DNA from: Caproiciproducens galactitolivorans
GTDB lineage: Bacteria > Bacillota > Clostridia > Oscillospirales > Acutalibacteraceae
DNA length: 64,000 nucleotides
Assembly (NCBI RefSeq): GCF_004768785.1
Contig: NZ_SRMQ01000001.1
Span: 124,001 to 188,000 of the forward strand
Reading direction: 5' to 3'
The notes beneath the pieces are model-generated. The model saw only the letters and a program-made list of their open reading frames with translations. It had not been told where the DNA came from and did not search any database. Position 1 is the first letter of the stretch. Every line of letters begins with the position of its first letter. Positions 43,970 through 51,053 of the stretch are shown here, piece after piece. Both the position numbers and the translations under genes were made by a program.

Positions 43970-44087
43970 ATGTGGTAATTATGGATTAAAGGTGTAATCC
44001 AATTTATTACAAAGCCTGGAAATTCCTATCACAAATGTGATTATGACTGTGTGTGCAATCATATGAATTCCCGCTTTATAAGCAGGT

Positions 44088-44441
44088 TTATTCTGTGTGC
44101 GCTTCGCAGCGCACTTCATGGTTTTTTTGCTCCAAGTGGTTTTTAAAGCATTTTTCAATGATTCCCTCCGGGAATTTCAGCATGGATACCCCGCAATCCT
44201 GCAGCTCGCGGAACAGCTCCGGATTCACGAAGCTCGCGACGGAGAAAGGGGTAATGCAAGCCATGGATTTTTTTCGAAGATAATCGTTATAGCTGATCTT
44301 CCGGCAAGGATACTCAATGTTCAGATTCTCTACATCTTCAATAAACAGCGTGTCGGAAAAATCACAAATGCCAAGATTGAGACCGGGGAAACTCTTCCCG
44401 GAAACCGCATGGTAGTAATTGCATAATTTACAGTCCAGCAT
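44088..44441 (-). CDS. Unknown protein in the hydrogenase operon (117 aa)
   Basis: I do not recognise a family. The protein begins MLDCKLCNYY, a CxxC pair, and has four further cysteines at about residues 26, 46, 62 and 83. No signal peptide or transmembrane helix is seen, so it is probably cytoplasmic and may bind metal. It lies 23 bases after the group-B-like hydrogenase gene on the same strand, with a strong AAAGGAGGG site, and is likely translated from the same mRNA. Role may be accessory to that enzyme. Confidence 0.7.
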   Translation of the reverse strand: MLDCKLCNYYHAVSGKSFPGLNLGICDFSDTLFIEDVENLNIEYPCRKISYNDYLRKKSMACITPFSVASFVNPELFRELQDCGVSMLKFPEGIIEKCFKNHLEQKNHEVRCEAHTE

Positions 44442-44464
44442 AGGAAATATCCCTCCTTTATGTA

Positions 44465-45883
44465 CTATCTCACTTTGACGGATTCTTTTACCCCGCGGGT
44501 GGCCTGTTTTGCGAAGCTTTCAATTCGCATCCTGTTTTTCGCGGGTTGATTCAGGCTGATACAGGCGGCCCCGCCGACACAGCCTCCAACACAGGCCATC
44601 CCTTCGATAAAGTTTTCCACCAACTTCCCTTTGGAAGCTTTCAGAAGGGCGGCGCGGCACTCTTCCAACCCGTCGCAGACCGCCGGGTTTACCTGAAAAT
44701 CAATATTTTTTTCTTCCAGGGCATGAAAAACAGCCTCTGTTACGCCTCCGTTTCTTGCAAATATTCTGCCGAAGTAGGAAGCGTCGTTTAGCTCGCTTTC
44801 CTCCAGTTCTTCCAGATGGATGTCCAAACCACCGAACATGGCCTGAAGTTCTTCAAAAGTGATTACACAGTCAACCACGCCTTGCAGTTCTTCTTTTTGA
44901 AATTCCATCTTTTTGGCGATGCATGGGCCGATGAATACCACTTTTGCGGTTTGATCCCGCTGTTTGATCAGCCTCGCGATTTGCACCATGGGAGAAGGAT
45001 TGCTCGATATATGCTCCTTCAAGTCGGGAAAATTGGATTGAATAAACTGAACGAACGCGGGGCAGCAGGAAGTCGTGAGGAATCCTTTTTCAGCGAGTTC
45101 CTCTGCTTCTTTATCTGCGACAATGTCCGCGCCGAGTGCGGCTTCCACTACCTTGTCAAAACCGATTTTTTTCAGACCGGTTACAATCTGCCCGATGCTC
45201 GCATAGGAAAACTGGCTTGCAATGGCAGGCGCAATAGCGGCGTAAACCCGGTAATTTTTTCCGTGATCGGAATCCCGTATCATCTTCATGGCATTCAAAA
45301 CATAGGATTTATCCGCAATTGCGCCAAACGGGCATTGGCGGACGCACGCGCCGCAGCGCACACATTTGTTTATATCGATTTTCGCTTTGTTTTGCTCATC
45401 CATAGAGATGGCATTCGCCTTGCAGGCGCTGATGCAGGGGCGTTCTTGTTCCGTAATGGCGTGATAAGGACATGAACGCATACATTGACCGCATCCCTTG
45501 CATTTTTCATGGTCGATAACCGCTTTATGGTTTACAAAGGTAATTGCGCCTGCGGGGCACACGTTTTGGCAGCGGTGAGCAATGCACCCCTGGCAGGTAT
45601 CCGTAACGGTAAAGCGTTTTGTTGGGCATTCCTCGCAGGCGACATCAAGTACTTCCACAATATTTTTGTTATTTGGATTGCCGCCCATGGCCAGCTTTAC
45701 CCGTTCTTCTATGATGGCCCGTTCCCGGTAAATGCAGCAACGCATGGTTGCTTTCGGTCCCGGGATGATTTTGCGGGGTATCTCATATAAATTTGCGTTA
45801 AGCTCGTCTTTTGCCGCGAGCCGGATAACTTCTTTCAGAACCCTGTACTTCAGTTTCTGTACATTGGAATTAAATTGCAACAT
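44465..45883 (-). CDS. [FeFe] hydrogenase, group-B-like
   Basis: A 472-residue iron-only hydrogenase homologue. Residues 128-185 contain ferredoxin-type clusters (CKGCGQC, CVRCGAC). The H-cluster motifs are TSCCPAF (C273, C274), IGPCIAKK (C321) and GMACVGGC (C431, C435). The relay cysteine equivalent to C. pasteurianum C299 is present as C273, so catalysis is possible. TSCCPAF and MACVGGC instead of TSCCPGW and MACPGGC point to group B. It is the second gene of a minus-strand operon with a small thioredoxin-like gene before and a Cys-containing gene after it. Confidence 0.88.
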   Translation of the reverse strand: MLQFNSNVQKLKYRVLKEVIRLAAKDELNANLYEIPRKIIPGPKATMRCCIYRERAIIEERVKLAMGGNPNNKNIVEVLDVACEECPTKRFTVTDTCQGCIAHRCQNVCPAGAITFVNHKAVIDHEKCKGCGQCMRSCPYHAITEQERPCISACKANAISMDEQNKAKIDINKCVRCGACVRQCPFGAIADKSYVLNAMKMIRDSDHGKNYRVYAAIAPAIASQFSYASIGQIVTGLKKIGFDKVVEAALGADIVADKEAEELAEKGFLTTSCCPAFVQFIQSNFPDLKEHISSNPSPMVQIARLIKQRDQTAKVVFIGPCIAKKMEFQKEELQGVVDCVITFEELQAMFGGLDIHLEELEESELNDASYFGRIFARNGGVTEAVFHALEEKNIDFQVNPAVCDGLEECRAALLKASKGKLVENFIEGMACVGGCVGGAACISLNQPAKNRMRIESFAKQATRGVKESVKVR

Positions 45884-45945
45884 ATCACATTCCCTTCCAT
45901 AAACCCGGTGGCGCCGATTGTTTAGTAATTATAAATTCTGACGTC

Positions 45946-46194
45946 TCAAAGGTTGATCGGCTGCAAAATATAGGTTCCGAACACATTTTCCAAGTTGTCT
46001 TTTGAAACATATCCCGTCAAGTATTCACCGATTTTTACCGGTACGCCAGAGTTTGTAAAATCTCCCGTGCAAAGCGAAGCGCTTAGGGAAACCTTGTTTT
46101 CAAGGTGATGTTTCTGGATCAGCCGCCGAAATCCTTTCAAGATATCCAATGATTTTAGTTGGGATGATTTTTCGATGTAAACCTCAATGTTCAT
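45946..46194 (-). CDS. Small thioredoxin-like [2Fe-2S]-type protein lacking ligands
   Basis: An 82-residue protein. The pattern VSLSASLCTGDFTNSGVPVKIGEYL fits the thioredoxin-like [2Fe-2S] domain (seen in parts), where C-x-x-x-x-C and later C-x-x-x-C ligands are expected. Only one cysteine is left, so a cluster is unlikely. The ATG at 46194 follows GTGGAG. It is the first gene of the minus-strand hydrogenase operon, 62 bases before the hydrogenase gene. It may be a structural partner rather than an electron carrier. Confidence 0.6.
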   Translation of the reverse strand: MNIEVYIEKSSQLKSLDILKGFRRLIQKHHLENKVSLSASLCTGDFTNSGVPVKIGEYLTGYVSKDNLENVFGTYILQPINL

Positions 46195-46428
46195 AAAAAC
46201 ACTCCACTTCCTAAGTCCCAAGTTCAAAAGCTCTGACAATCTTGTAACAAAACATAGCATGTCGGAAACAGACCGTCAACGAAATTTGCTTTAATTTTGC
46301 TAATTTGAAATTTTAAAAGCCGAAAGTATGCCGCCAAATCGTCATTCGTGCCCGATGAACAGTAGATTTTTTGCTGTTTTTCTTTTTGTTTTTTTTGTAA
46401 AAAACGTCTAAAAATAAAAACCATATTT

Positions 46429-46457
46429 ATTATAGTAACACTTTGTACTTGCATAAA
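46429..46457 (-). promoter_or_regulatory. Putative promoter of the minus-strand hydrogenase operon
   Basis: TATAAT on the - strand (46434-46429), preceded by GTTAC. The -35 (TTTATG at 46457-46452) is poor, suggesting that an activator or another sigma factor is used. The area overlaps a sequence partly similar to the candidate guide RNA at 50830-50853. Confidence 0.45.
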
Positions 46458-46622
46458 GATTATTGTTTTTTATTTTGCTTCGCTGTGACAAAACGTTATA
46501 ATAATTTGATACCCAAAAATTCATACAGGGAAGAATAAATATGTTCTTCATATTTGCACAAAAGATTGTAAAGATTCACAAAAATAGAATAGGACATATA
46601 GATGTTTTCACAATTTATATCG

Positions 46623-46651
46623 TTGTTTTTCGGAATAGTTTGTGATATGAT
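46623..46651 (+). promoter_or_regulatory. Putative promoter of the sensory hydrogenase operon
   Basis: TTGTTT (46623-46628) and TATGAT (46646-46651) with a 17-base spacer, about 120 bases before the ATG. Confidence 0.6.
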
Positions 46652-46773
46652 AGAAAAAACGAGACAAAGGTTCGCCTCCGATCAAATGAATATGCTTTTT
46701 GCCCGCGCAACGTTGTGGGACGAAATCCATCGCTTGCATCGGAACGGCTGCCTGCCCTGTGGAGCGTTATTTC

Positions 46774-48501
46774 ATGGAAGGAATCATTGGTTTAAATAAA
46801 TCGGATTGTAAAAATTGTTATAAATGCATTCGCAATTGCCCGGTAAAATCGATAGCCTATCGGGATGAGCAGATACAGATTCTCGGGGATGAGTGCATCT
46901 ATTGCGGGAATTGTTTGCTGGTTTGCCCGCAAAATGCGAAATATATCAATAGTGATCTTCCGAAAGTGAAAAAAGCGATTGAAGCAGGGGAGAAGCTGTA
47001 TGTATCTCTGGCTCCGTCCTATATTGCCGCATTTCCCCAGACGGGGATTCTGAAAATGTCGGCGGCGTTAAAGCAATTGGGATTTACCCATGTGGAGGAA
47101 ACAGCGATCGGCGCCGAACAGGTGACACGCGAATATGAAAAATTGATCCGAAAGCATAAAATGCAGAATATTATAACTTCGGCCTGTCCCTCGATCAATC
47201 TGCTTATCGAAAAAAATTATCCCTTACTTACTTCCCAGCTTGCGCCGGTTGTAACGCCGGTGATAGCGCATGCGCGTATGATCAAACAGATTTACGGCGT
47301 TCGGGCGAAAGTTGTGTTTATCGGTCCCTGTATATCGAAAAAATATGAATGCCTTGACCCCGTCAACGGCAATCTGCTGTTTTCCGCTCTGACATTCGAC
47401 GAGCTGCAAAATTGGTTCCAGGAGGAAAATGTGGATTTTTCGCAGGAGGACCAAAACAGCCGGGCGATGGCAAATACCCTGCCCCGCTATTATCCGGCGC
47501 CGGGGGGCATTATAAAAAATCTTAACCGGAAGGAACGCGCGGCGTATGAGTGTCTGAGCGTTGACGGGGTGGACCGCTGTATTGAGGTGCTGGATTCCAT
47601 TCAGCGGGACAAACTTTCCGGCTATTTCCTAGAGCTGAATGCCTGCGCGGGCGGCTGTTTGGGCGGCCCGATTTTAAGATCCATGAATATCAGCTTCCTG
47701 CTTTCAAAAAATGTGCTGGTTCGCAATGTGAAGCGTGTGAATGAAGCGCCTCCGGCCCTTACGGAGGGCGTTTCCTTGCAGTTTATGAGAAAGCATCGAA
47801 GCCGCACCGTAAAGCGGAAATCGATTGATGAAAAGAAAATTCGGGAAATATTGGCGTCTACGGGAAAAACTTCTCCCGAAAAGGAACTGAACTGTGGCTG
47901 CTGCGGATATAATACCTGCCGCGAAAAAGCGATTGCCGTGCTTCAGGGAAAAGCAAATATTAACATGTGTATCCCCTATATGCGCGATCTGGCGGAAAGT
48001 ATGTCCAACACGGTTGTGGAAAATACCCCGACCGGTATTTTGATGATTAACAGCCAATTGAATATTGAACAATACAATCCGGCCGCAGCGAAATTACTAA
48101 ACCTCAGCGAAGAAGCCGTCGGCCGCCCGGTCAGCAGCGTCCTCTCAAGTAAAGATTTTGAGAAGGTTCTGAACAGCGGGAAAAATATTCTCAATCATAA
48201 ACAGGCTTACCATTCGCTCGGCTTGGTTTTAGAGCAGACAGTAGTTCTTGTGCGTAATGCGCAGACGTTGTTTGTGCTTTTGAAGGACATTACGCAGGAA
48301 GAAAAAATGCTGGAAAAGCACCGGAAGGTTACGGAAGAAACGGCGGCATTCGCAAAAGAGGTAGTGAATAAACAAATGCGCATCGTGCAGGAGATTACAA
48401 ATCTTCTTGGGGAAACTACGTGCGAAACGAAAGTGGCCTTATTGCAGCTTACCAAAAATATCGTTTCGGAAAAGGACGCTGAAAATGTACATAAAGATTG
48501 A
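46774..48501 (+). CDS. Sensory-type [FeFe]-hydrogenase homologue with PAS domain (HydS-like)
   Basis: A 575-residue protein in the order: two ferredoxin clusters (CKNCYKC at 12-18 with C22; CIYCGNC at 41-47 with C51), H-cluster domain (TSACPS with C138; IGPCISKK with C186; NACAGGC with C291, C295), a four-Cys module (C374, C376/377, C382, C399), a PAS domain (about 410-505) and a short coiled coil. The relay cysteine of catalytic hydrogenases is Ala137. This fits the putative H2-sensing group C type. Start ATG 46774 with GTGGAG. It overlaps the phosphatase gene by 17 bases. Confidence 0.88.
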   Translation: MEGIIGLNKSDCKNCYKCIRNCPVKSIAYRDEQIQILGDECIYCGNCLLVCPQNAKYINSDLPKVKKAIEAGEKLYVSLAPSYIAAFPQTGILKMSAALKQLGFTHVEETAIGAEQVTREYEKLIRKHKMQNIITSACPSINLLIEKNYPLLTSQLAPVVTPVIAHARMIKQIYGVRAKVVFIGPCISKKYECLDPVNGNLLFSALTFDELQNWFQEENVDFSQEDQNSRAMANTLPRYYPAPGGIIKNLNRKERAAYECLSVDGVDRCIEVLDSIQRDKLSGYFLELNACAGGCLGGPILRSMNISFLLSKNVLVRNVKRVNEAPPALTEGVSLQFMRKHRSRTVKRKSIDEKKIREILASTGKTSPEKELNCGCCGYNTCREKAIAVLQGKANINMCIPYMRDLAESMSNTVVENTPTGILMINSQLNIEQYNPAAAKLLNLSEEAVGRPVSSVLSSKDFEKVLNSGKNILNHKQAYHSLGLVLEQTVVLVRNAQTLFVLLKDITQEEKMLEKHRKVTEETAAFAKEVVNKQMRIVQEITNLLGETTCETKVALLQLTKNIVSEKDAENVHKD

Positions 48502-49150
48502 CGCTTACGGCGAATGCATTCAAAAGTACGGCGAGGAGCTTTGCGGAGATCAGGTGAAAATTATCCGGAATCCATCCGGCGTCACCGCCATCCTTGCCGA
48601 CGGACTCGGCGGCGGGACGAAAGCAAGCCTGCTGACCTCATTTACCGCGAAAATAATGGAAACCATGTGCAAAAGCGGGGTGCCCATCGGCCAGGCCGCC
48701 GATATGATCGTTGAATTCCAGCCGGAAACCGGGGAACAGGACAGCGCTCACAAGGTACCTTTTACGCTGATACAAATTCCTTTCAATGGAATGATGCATG
48801 TGGAGCAGTTTGAAACACCGGATGTCATTCTGCTGCGCCGCGGCAAGCCGGTTCCAATGCACGTAAGCTGCAGGGGCTTGCGGGGAAAGACCCTCCGCAG
48901 CGGGGTAATGTCCATAAAGCAGGCGGATACGGTGATTGCGGTTGGCAGCGGCATGCTGAGCGTCGGCGCGAAAAGGAATCTGAAAAACGGCTGGCGACTG
49001 GAAACCCTTTCGGCCTATATGCAGAACGCCTACCATCCCCGGGCGTCAGCCGAGCATTTGGTTCGGCTCCTTCTGAATGCGGGGAATTCGCTTTCCTTCG
49101 GAAAGCCGGAAAAGGATTTATCCGCGATGGTTTTCCGTCTGGGAACCTAG
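48485..49150 (+). CDS. SpoIIE/PP2C-like serine phosphatase
   Basis: A 221-residue PPM-family protein. The metal-binding start is VTAILADGLGGGTKAS, matching the DG-x-G-x-G motif of SpoIIE/RsbU phosphatases, and a late VIAVGSGML segment stands where the second acidic metal motif (often DG) is expected, with Gly-Ser-Gly instead. It starts inside the end of the HydS-like gene, so the two are translationally coupled. In known group C loci such a phosphatase is proposed to transmit the H2 signal. The phosphoprotein target is unknown. Confidence 0.85.
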   Translation: MYIKIDAYGECIQKYGEELCGDQVKIIRNPSGVTAILADGLGGGTKASLLTSFTAKIMETMCKSGVPIGQAADMIVEFQPETGEQDSAHKVPFTLIQIPFNGMMHVEQFETPDVILLRRGKPVPMHVSCRGLRGKTLRSGVMSIKQADTVIAVGSGMLSVGAKRNLKNGWRLETLSAYMQNAYHPRASAEHLVRLLLNAGNSLSFGKPEKDLSAMVFRLGT

Positions 49151-49199
49151 TGGCTTCCGGTGCTATTACATACTTTTGCTTTGAAACAGGAATACGGTT

Positions 49200-50726
49200 A
49201 TGACGTTTAAGACATTGGTGCTGCAAATCTATAAACCGACGAGACAGAAAAAAGAGCTGATGGATACGGCGCTCCTGCGCTATTCGCAGGCCTTCCAGTT
49301 TCTGATGGATCGGTACCGTAAGGAACTTGAGGAACTGGCTGAATCGAAAAGTGCGATCACACAGCGGATCTTGTTCAATTTGATCGACAAAGAAACAGCG
49401 AAAAAATTGAATGATTATGATGTACAGCCGTTCAAGGATTCTTTGAAAATAGAATTCGCCGCCGTTTCGGCTTCCTATATTGCTCAGAAGCGGAAAAATC
49501 CAAGTGCGAGGTATCCTCTCCTGTTTCTGGACGATACCCGTTTTGCTTCCGAGATTGCGGACTGTATCCGTCAATTTGACGGCGTGCGGATTCCACCGCA
49601 AATCTTTGCGTATCGCTGCTCAAAGCTGATCAGCCAAAAGGGAAATCTGCGTTCCCTCTATTTCGGACGGTATGCGATGAACCGCAATTACTGTTTGCTT
49701 TATGATGAATTCAAAGACCGGTTTTACGCAAAGCTGTACCTTTTGAACAGAAAGGAAAGCATTCCGGTCGGAAACTGGGCAAGCGGCCTGTGTTTAAAAT
49801 ACGTTTGGGCGGGTATGCCACCGCTGATTCCTAAGCCCGGCAGGCGAAGCTATATCGTCGTCCCGTTGGCTTTTGGGAAAAGGCAGTATGCCGACTTGAA
49901 GAAAACCCTTGAAAACCCCGGTATGCTTCACTCCGCCCGTTTGGTGAAAAGGGAAAGAAGATACTATTTAATGATCAATATGGAATGCGGCCAAAGGGAC
50001 GCTTTAACGGTGGCGACAACAATGGGGGTCGCTCGCAATATGCCCGGCGGATTGCATTACACCGTTTGCGGGGAAAACGGGGAAATTCAGGAAAACGGCA
50101 GAATCTGCGTGGCACCGAATAAAGAGGATTTGTTTCATCTGGCCAATAAAATAGTAGGCTTCGCGGAAAATTACCGTTCGCAGGTGGTGATGGAGGCAAA
50201 TGGGGGAAGAAACGACCAGTTGCCGCTCCTGCCTGAAGAGGCCTTGTCGGCCGACCAATACGGGGCTCTTGTAAAATTACTAAAGTATAAGCTTCCGGAA
50301 AGAGGGTTGCCGGCGCCAATTGAAGTAAGCGCGAACGGCCTTTTCCATACCTGCCCCGCCTGCGGGAAAAGAACCCGGCGCAATCTGGTATCATCGGAGC
50401 TTTTTATCTGCATTTACTGCGGGTACGCGTCGGAATTGGAATGGATCGGCAGCGAGAGCCTTGCGAAAAGGCTTGAGCAGTACCACCACGATAAAATACC
50501 GCTTTCCATCCGAAAAACAGAAGACGGGCTTCTTTGCTTCAACAAAGTCCTTGGCTTTGAATGCCTGCTTCCGCAAGGGGGAACGGATTATACGCCTGTA
50601 TATGATAGGCTTAGGCAGTTTCTCGAGAATATGGATGGTGAATTTATCGACGATCCGAAAAAATATGCTGTTTGGAGAAAACTTTTTTATGCAGCAAATC
50701 TGAAAGAAGCCGTCCGCTTCTGTTGA
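49200..50726 (+). CDS. TnpB-like protein with inactivated RuvC site (TldR-like candidate)
   Basis: A 508-residue OrfB/TnpB-fold protein. The N-terminal region (1-260) has the YKPTRQKKELMDTALLRY-type start (in parts) of TnpB. RuvC-I reads GVARN (276-280), with Ala278 where Asp is required. RuvC-II keeps a Glu (VVMEANG, E332). The zinc ribbon is CPAC (385-388) and CIYC (404-407). RuvC-III, usually DRDxNAA, reads ELEW (412-415). A tail of about 85 residues follows. No transposase TnpA or transposon ends are seen. It lies 49 bases after the phosphatase, same strand, with only a weak ACAGGA site. DNA cleavage is unlikely; RNA-guided binding is possible. Confidence 0.8.
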   Translation: MTFKTLVLQIYKPTRQKKELMDTALLRYSQAFQFLMDRYRKELEELAESKSAITQRILFNLIDKETAKKLNDYDVQPFKDSLKIEFAAVSASYIAQKRKNPSARYPLLFLDDTRFASEIADCIRQFDGVRIPPQIFAYRCSKLISQKGNLRSLYFGRYAMNRNYCLLYDEFKDRFYAKLYLLNRKESIPVGNWASGLCLKYVWAGMPPLIPKPGRRSYIVVPLAFGKRQYADLKKTLENPGMLHSARLVKRERRYYLMINMECGQRDALTVATTMGVARNMPGGLHYTVCGENGEIQENGRICVAPNKEDLFHLANKIVGFAENYRSQVVMEANGGRNDQLPLLPEEALSADQYGALVKLLKYKLPERGLPAPIEVSANGLFHTCPACGKRTRRNLVSSELFICIYCGYASELEWIGSESLAKRLEQYHHDKIPLSIRKTEDGLLCFNKVLGFECLLPQGGTDYTPVYDRLRQFLENMDGEFIDDPKKYAVWRKLFYAANLKEAVRFC

Positions 50727-50740
50727 TGATTTTTGCTTTG

Positions 50741-50890
50741 GATGCATTAGCTACCGCATCATGCTTCCGCGTATGTGGCGTAATCCCCTATGCAGAGCAT
50801 TTCCGCTGAGCGGAGACGGCTGAGCCGTTCAAGTGTAGCTATTTACTATATGGCCCGCTTAAAACGCAGATGTTGAGAGCGGGCTTTTTT
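50741..50890 (+). ncRNA. Candidate guide RNA downstream of the TnpB-like gene
   Basis: Within 15 bases of the TnpB-like stop begins a row of hairpins: GATGC/GCATC (50741-50760), ATGCT/AGCAT (50761-50800), TCCGC/GCGGA (50802-50814) and ACGGC/GCCGT (50816-50828). TAGCTAC in the first loop (50748-50754) is complementary to GTAGCTA at 50835-50841, a possible pseudoknot. A terminator follows. The layout (hairpins, pseudoknot, short unpaired stretch) recalls omega RNAs of TnpB. The candidate guide would lie in 50830-50853. Prediction by eye only. Confidence 0.45.
50853..50890 (+). terminator. Terminator of the sensory hydrogenase-TnpB-like unit
   Basis: Arms GCCCGCT and AGCGGGC with an 18-base loop, followed by six T. 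Confidence 0.85.
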
Positions 50891-50924
50891 CTAAAGTTGG
50901 ATATGAAAAAATTTTGTTGGTGCA

Positions 50925-50953
50925 TTGACAATTGTGTAAAAAAATAGTATAAT
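50925..50953 (+). promoter_or_regulatory. Promoter of the four-tRNA cluster
   Basis: Consensus TTGACA (50925-50930) and TATAAT (50948-50953), 17-base spacer, 23 bases before the first tRNA. Confidence 0.92.
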
Positions 50954-50976
50954 TATAAATACCGCTGAAAAACTAT

Positions 50977-51053
50977 GGGAGTATAGCTCAGCTGGTTAGA
51001 GCACCTGCCTTACAAGCAGGGGGTCATAGGTTCGAGTCCTATTGTTCCCACCA
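50977..51053 (+). tRNA. tRNA-Val (TAC)
   Basis: 77 bases with encoded CCA. Acceptor GGGAGTA pairs with TGTTCCC. The anticodon loop CTTACAA gives TAC. Confidence 0.96.

Follow-up and report, generated by a model that had tools for sequence, protein, structure and literature searches.

A nuclease-dead TnpB-like protein in a hydrogen-sensor operon, a candidate RNA-guided regulator of hydrogenase genes

The subject of this analysis is a gene for a nuclease-dead TnpB-like protein at the end of a putative hydrogen-sensor operon in Caproiciproducens galactitolivorans, together with the structured RNA that follows it. The window (i.e., the whole stretch of DNA that was analyzed) comprises 64,000 nt of the forward strand of contig NZ_SRMQ01000001.1 (GCF_004768785.1, positions 124,001 to 188,000), and coordinates given without a locus name are window positions. 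The TnpB-like open reading frame (ORF; 49200..50726, + strand), defined from the ORF list, profiles, and alignments, encodes 508 amino acids (aa), including a C-terminal extension. It is preceded on the same strand by hydS, encoding a HydS-type [FeFe] hydrogenase (46774..48501), and by a gene for a PP2C/SpoIIE-like protein (48485..49150); both start codons are inferred, that of hydS from homologs. Directly 3′ of the TnpB-like gene, also on the + strand, lie an omega-RNA-like scaffold (50740..50839), an unpaired 3′ tail proposed as its guide (UAUUUACUAUAU, 50840..50851), and a terminator-like hairpin followed by a T run (50852..50890), which would end the RNA. The hydrogenase gene hydA (44465..45883, − strand; TIGR04105, 582 bits) is divergent from hydS, and the proposed target of the guide (AAAAACCATATTTA, 46416..46429, + strand) is in the intergenic region between them.

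On its own, the 508-aa protein gives only weak matches to Cas12f1-like_TNB (5e-4) and guided_TnpB (0.004), both below the cut-offs of these models, and it is matched by a PHROGs transposase family at 6e-6; the TnpB model NF040570 has no match in the window's genome at 1e-5. A profile built from eight rows of the family is more sensitive, reaching nine PDB chains of the Cas12f/TnpB type (8e-9 to 3e-7) and aligning over 392 columns, with 99.8% probability, to two TnpBs that retain the catalytic D-E-D triad (from Pseudoalteromonas phage J2-1 and a P. spongiae plasmid). Judged by these profiles, the protein is a distant TnpB/Cas12f homolog. Its zinc ribbon spans residues 385-407 (CPAC at 385-388 and CIYC at 404-407). 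In the alignment with the two TnpBs, A278 occupies the column of the RuvC-I Asp, E332 that of the RuvC-II Glu, and E414 that of the RuvC-III Asp, so A278/E332/E414 stands where a TnpB nuclease has D-E-D. The layout, the ribbon, and these three residues had been proposed in an earlier, sequence-only reading of this DNA, and the alignment indicates that the residues were assigned correctly. That reading had missed a shortening of the protein: 54 residues separate RuvC-I from RuvC-II, versus 83 in the J2-1 TnpB (∼29 aa fewer), and the same stretch is shortened in eight aligned homologs relative to both reference TnpBs.

Its claim that no TnpA is present is borne out among the 14 window proteins (a subset of the window ORFs) that were scanned against Pfam. 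Viral contigs that were searched contained no relative, and phage and plasmid collections gave partial, distant matches only, the best being the J2-1 and P. spongiae plasmid TnpBs at 25-26% identity. The TnpB of phage J2-1 (locus L008, 3314-4765) has no annotated gene in its record. An imperfect 28-nt direct repeat (71%) flanks the TnpB-like gene (49156-49183 and 50713-50740), and could reflect chance or be the remnant of an insertion.

The gene is rare. Counting the window, it occurs in three of 300 genomes drawn from the family, four of 11 from the genus, and five of 394 from the order, and the families of two distant matches have it in three of 87 and two of four genomes. The three of 87 include G616, a partial match of 118 residues that was excluded, and the distinct set comprises nine genomes in three families. 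Five are window-type, i.e., the window itself (G000), G025 (matching Caproiciproducens faecalis AGMB10547), G300 (matching Amazonia massiliensis), G305, and G247, the last from another genus. The four distant ones are G313 and G370 (family f9) and G397 and G557 (family f13). Their proteins share between 57% and 25% identity with that of the window (G370 left out), and eight of the nine genes are open, full-length frames. The ratio of nonsynonymous to synonymous substitution rates (dN/dS) lies between 0.14 and 0.16 for four pairs and is saturated for a fifth, window-G247. In the ninth genome, G370, the gene (L049, 5203-5952) has two in-frame stops and runs into the contig end, whereas the adjacent RNA is intact; sequencing error, decay, or an RNA retained without its protein are all possible.

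Across the nine homologs, the RuvC-I Asp is always lost (replaced by A, S, G, or V) and the RuvC-III position is E, P, R, or Q; the catalytic set does not reappear elsewhere in the alignments. The A-E-E triad as a whole is conserved in part: the RuvC-I loss is found in all nine, E414 is retained in the five window-type proteins and G397, the proteins of G313, G370, and G557 have P, R, or Q at this position, and the RuvC-II Glu is lost as well in G557.

The link to hydS had been put forward for the window alone, where the 49-nt gap between the end of the PP2C-like gene (49150) and the TnpB-like start is as described, and it proves to be conserved in other genomes. In all eight readable loci, from three families, hydS lies two genes upstream of the TnpB-like gene (the ninth, in G370, is excluded because the contig stops inside that gene). 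The five window-type genomes share the order hydA (divergent), hydS, PP2C-like gene, TnpB-like gene; in G313, G397, and G557, hydS (54%, 41%, and 44% identity, respectively) and one more gene precede it. The assignment of HydS follows from the presence of hydrogenase and PAS domains (Pfam) and from the TSACP motif, in which the proton-transfer Cys is altered; H2 sensing itself is putative. The middle gene is PP2C-like in six of the eight loci (the window-type five, and G313 at 30% identity). In the two f13 genomes it gave no match to PP2C, with Pfam returning nothing for G397, the one scanned. The window protein itself matches SpoIIE at 5e-4, below the cut-off, and its DGLGGG motif is a clear case of a DGxGxG-type motif that, by eye, is not clear in G313, G397, or G557. 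The f13 gene (L051, 8259-9284; L050, 10593-11627) may encode a pseudo-phosphatase or another protein. Of the 300 genomes from the family, three were found to have the close PP2C type (at least 53% identity), and these are also the ones with the TnpB-like gene; the remaining PP2C matches among 87 genomes are at 26-33% identity, mostly in longer frames. Two small ORFs next to hydA are kept in four window-type relatives, one upstream (45946..46260, − strand, start inferred near 46197, no Pfam match) and one of 117 aa downstream (44088..44441, − strand). The gene under regulation is likely hydA.

Also absent from the sequence-only reading was a conserved RNA at 50740-50851, whose scaffold of ∼100 nt directly follows the TnpB-like gene in all nine genomes. 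In the five window-type genomes, 72 of 107 columns are invariant in the RNA, versus 131 of 317 at the coding end and nine of 130 farther downstream. The consensus fold consists of a closing stem (P1) and two further stems (P2 and P3), with a fourth hairpin that appears in single-sequence folds; 93.9% of the cells in the consensus structure pair. Double changes occur in 12 of the 22 pairs, a number reached by none of 500 shuffles (mean 5.7), and versions of the structure slid along the alignment give at most four, although the consensus is favored in that comparison because it was derived from the same alignment. A model of all nine RNAs (R1) has one match in each protein-bearing genome, these being its own training set, and in 31 other genomes its best E-value is 0.022, with five between 0.02 and 0.1 (at most 95 candidates per genome were scored). 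A model of the five window-type RNAs (R2) also recovers each of the four distant RNAs next to the TnpB-like gene (9e-22, 7e-21, 2e-8, and 2e-4). Rfam has no match at 50740-50851. By folding energy, the window RNA (50740-50856) is unremarkable (z −0.42), and the case for the RNA rests on covariation. TnpB omega-RNAs consist of a scaffold followed by an unpaired 3′ guide, and by its sequence and predicted fold the RNA looks like one with a short guide.

In the three RNAs that were folded, the unpaired tail is 12 nt (window), 11 nt (G397), and 9 nt (G313) long, and each runs into a terminator-like hairpin (z −3.7 in the window, where a simple terminator scan did not list it). Four of the five window-type tails begin with TATTTA, and that of G305 deviates at base six. 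The G397 tail is UAUUAAAUAA, and that of G557 starts with GAUUAA, i.e., with G rather than U.

These tails match intergenic DNA. When the region between hydA and hydS is aligned across the five window-type genomes, no invariant run is longer than AAAAACCATATTTA (14 nt; the next is 7), which contains ACCA (46420-46423) followed by a 6-nt seed match, TATTTA (46424-46429). The match next to ACC[A/G] is 6-7 nt in four of these genomes and 5 nt (five of six seed bases) in G305. A relative without a detected TnpB-like gene, in which the contig is broken inside hydS (G303), has the site too. In G397, two inverted sites upstream of hydBCA-hydS, ACCG-TATTAAATAA and ACCG-TATTAAATA, match the tail over 10 and 9 nt; a 10-nt match arose in seven of 5000 shuffles and two 9-nt sites in none. 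The sequence CCNNATTAAATAA is found once in the G397 genome, and in eight of 15 genomes overall, with none in G557. The G557 locus has two ACCA-GATTAA sites, and both carry the G that begins its own tail; the scan pattern permitted T or G at the first seed position, and none of 5000 local dinucleotide shuffles contained two such sites. The spacing of this inverted pair, 30 bp, is that of the G397 pair. When every guide was compared with every locus, the six TATTT guides (window-type and G313) gave identical rows, matching window-type loci only, the G397 guide matched the G397 locus as well as two sites in G313, and the G557 guide matched its own locus only. The suggestion in the sequence-only reading that the protein is perhaps RNA-guided thus gains support from the covarying downstream RNA and from a tail that matches DNA sites and, in one lineage, appears to co-vary with them. 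The G557 double site (L050, 17235-17275) also has the same central spacer as that of G397; it lies in a long intergenic stretch without an obvious target gene, and may drive an unannotated transcript. Co-variation of guide and site beyond about base six within the window group was considered and dropped after comparison by hand, because in some relatives the site is matched better by the window tail than by the tail of that relative.

Several observations weigh against guidance of the protein to hydrogenase genes. The G305 tail mismatches the hydA/hydS site at base six. The G557 pair sits between an ORF without a Pfam match and a YcxB-like gene rather than beside a hydrogenase; no such site was seen upstream of the G557 hydS, and no NuoE was found in that genome. 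G313 has no ACCR plus 6-nt match in its 20-kb locus, and its tail fits window-type loci rather than its own. ACCA-TATTTA is present upstream of its NuoE-type operon, and partial matches (four to five of the six seed bases) precede its hydS and a gene for an iron-containing alcohol dehydrogenase; the NuoE-type operons of the window genus have no CCRTATT directly upstream. Two more ACCR+TATTTA sites in the window's 20 kb are inside ORFs by their coordinates. A naive tetramer count gives 13 five-nt matches for ACC[A/G] and up to 12 for other classes, and the window-type shuffle counts (nine to 25 of 5000) are post hoc, because ACC[A/G] was derived from the sites themselves. In a search for a wider regulon, AAAACCRTATTWA was at chance level genome-wide (26 of 30 genomes, similar to the reversed control); among 30 loci that were inspected, most sites are within predicted ORFs, and it is the hydA/hydS site that recurs next to the same genes. 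A sigma-70 scan showed no convincing promoter at that site, and any action as a roadblock is thus our inference. By a second measure of covariation in the RNA, the number of further pair types, 40 of 500 shuffles attained the observed value. For the protein, the AlphaFold model is poor (pLDDT 47, pTM 0.30, with three sequences as input). TnpB has a basic helix close to the RNA in the stretch between RuvC-I and RuvC-II, and the absence of ∼29 aa there could weaken RNA binding.

The G313 sites upstream of the alcohol dehydrogenase gene (identified by Pfam) and hydS are of the ACCATATT type (L048, 4914-4936 and 6513-6536). They hint at a small redox regulon, though both deviate from the organism's own 6-nt seed.

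Of the other explanations, the one that survives best holds that a conventional regulatory protein uses the DNA sites as its operators, that the AT-rich tail resembles them by chance, and that the TnpB-like protein uses its RNA otherwise. The double sites of G397 and G557, inverted repeats around a similar spacer, would suit a dimeric regulator, both tail and sites are AT-rich, and window-type matches are no longer than 5-7 nt. However, window-type sites are single, the match in G397 reaches 10 nt, and G557 has the same differing base in its tail and at each of its two sites. Furthermore, ACC precedes the match, the side of the target on which the transposon-adjacent motif (TAM) of TnpB lies. 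We consider chance resemblance to a conventional operator unlikely. A second possibility, rather less credible, is that RNA binding was kept and DNA targeting lost, the RNA serving as a 3′ untranslated region element (for autoregulation or stability) or as a scaffold in the HydS pathway. The shortened RuvC-I/RuvC-II stretch and the very short guide would agree with this, but the tail is conserved along with the scaffold and matches intergenic DNA, and 6-nt guides suffice for TldR proteins according to the available part of their description (PMC13418256).

For a decaying, immobilized transposon gene that is beside hydS by accident speak the rarity of the gene and the stops and contig end in G370; but a dN/dS of about 0.15, the hydS neighbor in three families, the eight intact frames, and an RNA with proportionally more invariant columns than the coding end contradict this explanation, which we regard as very improbable. 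That the nuclease is still active, with Glu414 in place of the RuvC-III Asp, would accord with the retention of E414 in six proteins but is hardly credible, because the RuvC-I Asp is lost in all nine and the other three have P, R, or Q at residue 414.

We favor regulation of hydrogenase genes: the TnpB-like protein is probably a domesticated, RNA-guided, non-cutting regulator of these genes, and would represent a new TldR-like clade. In the scenario that sequence comparison suggests, a hydrogen-sensor operon of this bacterial order acquired a TnpB, which ceased to cut DNA but retained the machinery for guide RNAs. Transcription through the 3′ end of the operon would yield the ∼100-nt scaffold RNA plus a guide of 9-12 nt, shortened by the terminator. 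The protein-RNA complex would recognize ACC[A/G] and then a target matching the first 6 to 10 guide bases, and we infer that, near hydrogenase genes (hydA/hydS in the window group, hydBCA in G397), it binds DNA but does not cut it. The bound complex would probably be a roadblock repressor; an activator is less likely. HydS and the product of the middle gene, encoded in the same operon, are likely inputs that would tune the level or activity of the complex to H2. The complete chain, in which a dead-TnpB complex gated by HydS and its partner is directed to hydrogenase promoters by a fixed guide of 9-12 nt, such that H2 controls hydrogenase expression by RNA-guided DNA binding, is offered tentatively, as somewhat less likely than not. 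If true, it would be a gas-sensing pathway ending in an RNA-guided transcription factor. The TnpB-like protein would also be an RNA-guided regulator of core energy metabolism that three bacterial families have kept, together with an RNA for which Rfam has no match. A possible DNA-binding effector in the HydS operon would also be a testable output for the HydS signal. A text search of open-licence papers found none that combine TldR and hydrogenase, and none on topic by title among the matches listed for TnpB and hydrogenase.

Comparison with known systems places the protein more closely. It shares related RuvC/zinc-ribbon sequence with Cas12f and Cas12m, the latter a non-cutting protein that acts through targeted binding (as given in the accessible part of PMC11013384); no array-like repeats were found near the gene, in a search limited to 44000-51000. 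The J2-1 and P. spongiae plasmid TnpBs, its best phage and plasmid matches, differ in keeping D-E-D, in having 29 more residues from RuvC-I to RuvC-II, and in showing no hydS among the annotated neighbors displayed. The window HydS resembles that of Thermotoga maritima in its hydrogenase and PAS domains and in the Ala at the proton-transfer Cys position; the available portion of that account (PMC10055695) assumes regulation of another hydrogenase, calls the physiological role unclear, and makes no mention of a TnpB-like gene. The closest likeness is to TldRs, described in the accessible text of PMC13418256 as TnpB-like nuclease-dead repressors with fliC- and csrA-linked clades, a guide RNA in the same cassette, and guides that work at lengths as short as 6 nt. 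Similarly, the family studied here combines TnpB homology, lost RuvC acids, an RNA predicted beside the gene, and a tie to a non-transposon host gene, hydS, with TnpA absent among the scanned proteins. A guide match to a TAM-flanked site at a regulated gene, a further TldR feature, varies among the genomes: it is strong in G397, equally strong but away from any hydrogenase gene in G557, 6-7 nt long in four window-type genomes, five of six bases in G305, and absent from the 20 kb of G313. It differs from the TldRs of that text in its linkage to hydS and to sites near hydrogenase genes instead of flagellin, in its shortened RuvC domain, and in being known from sequence alone.
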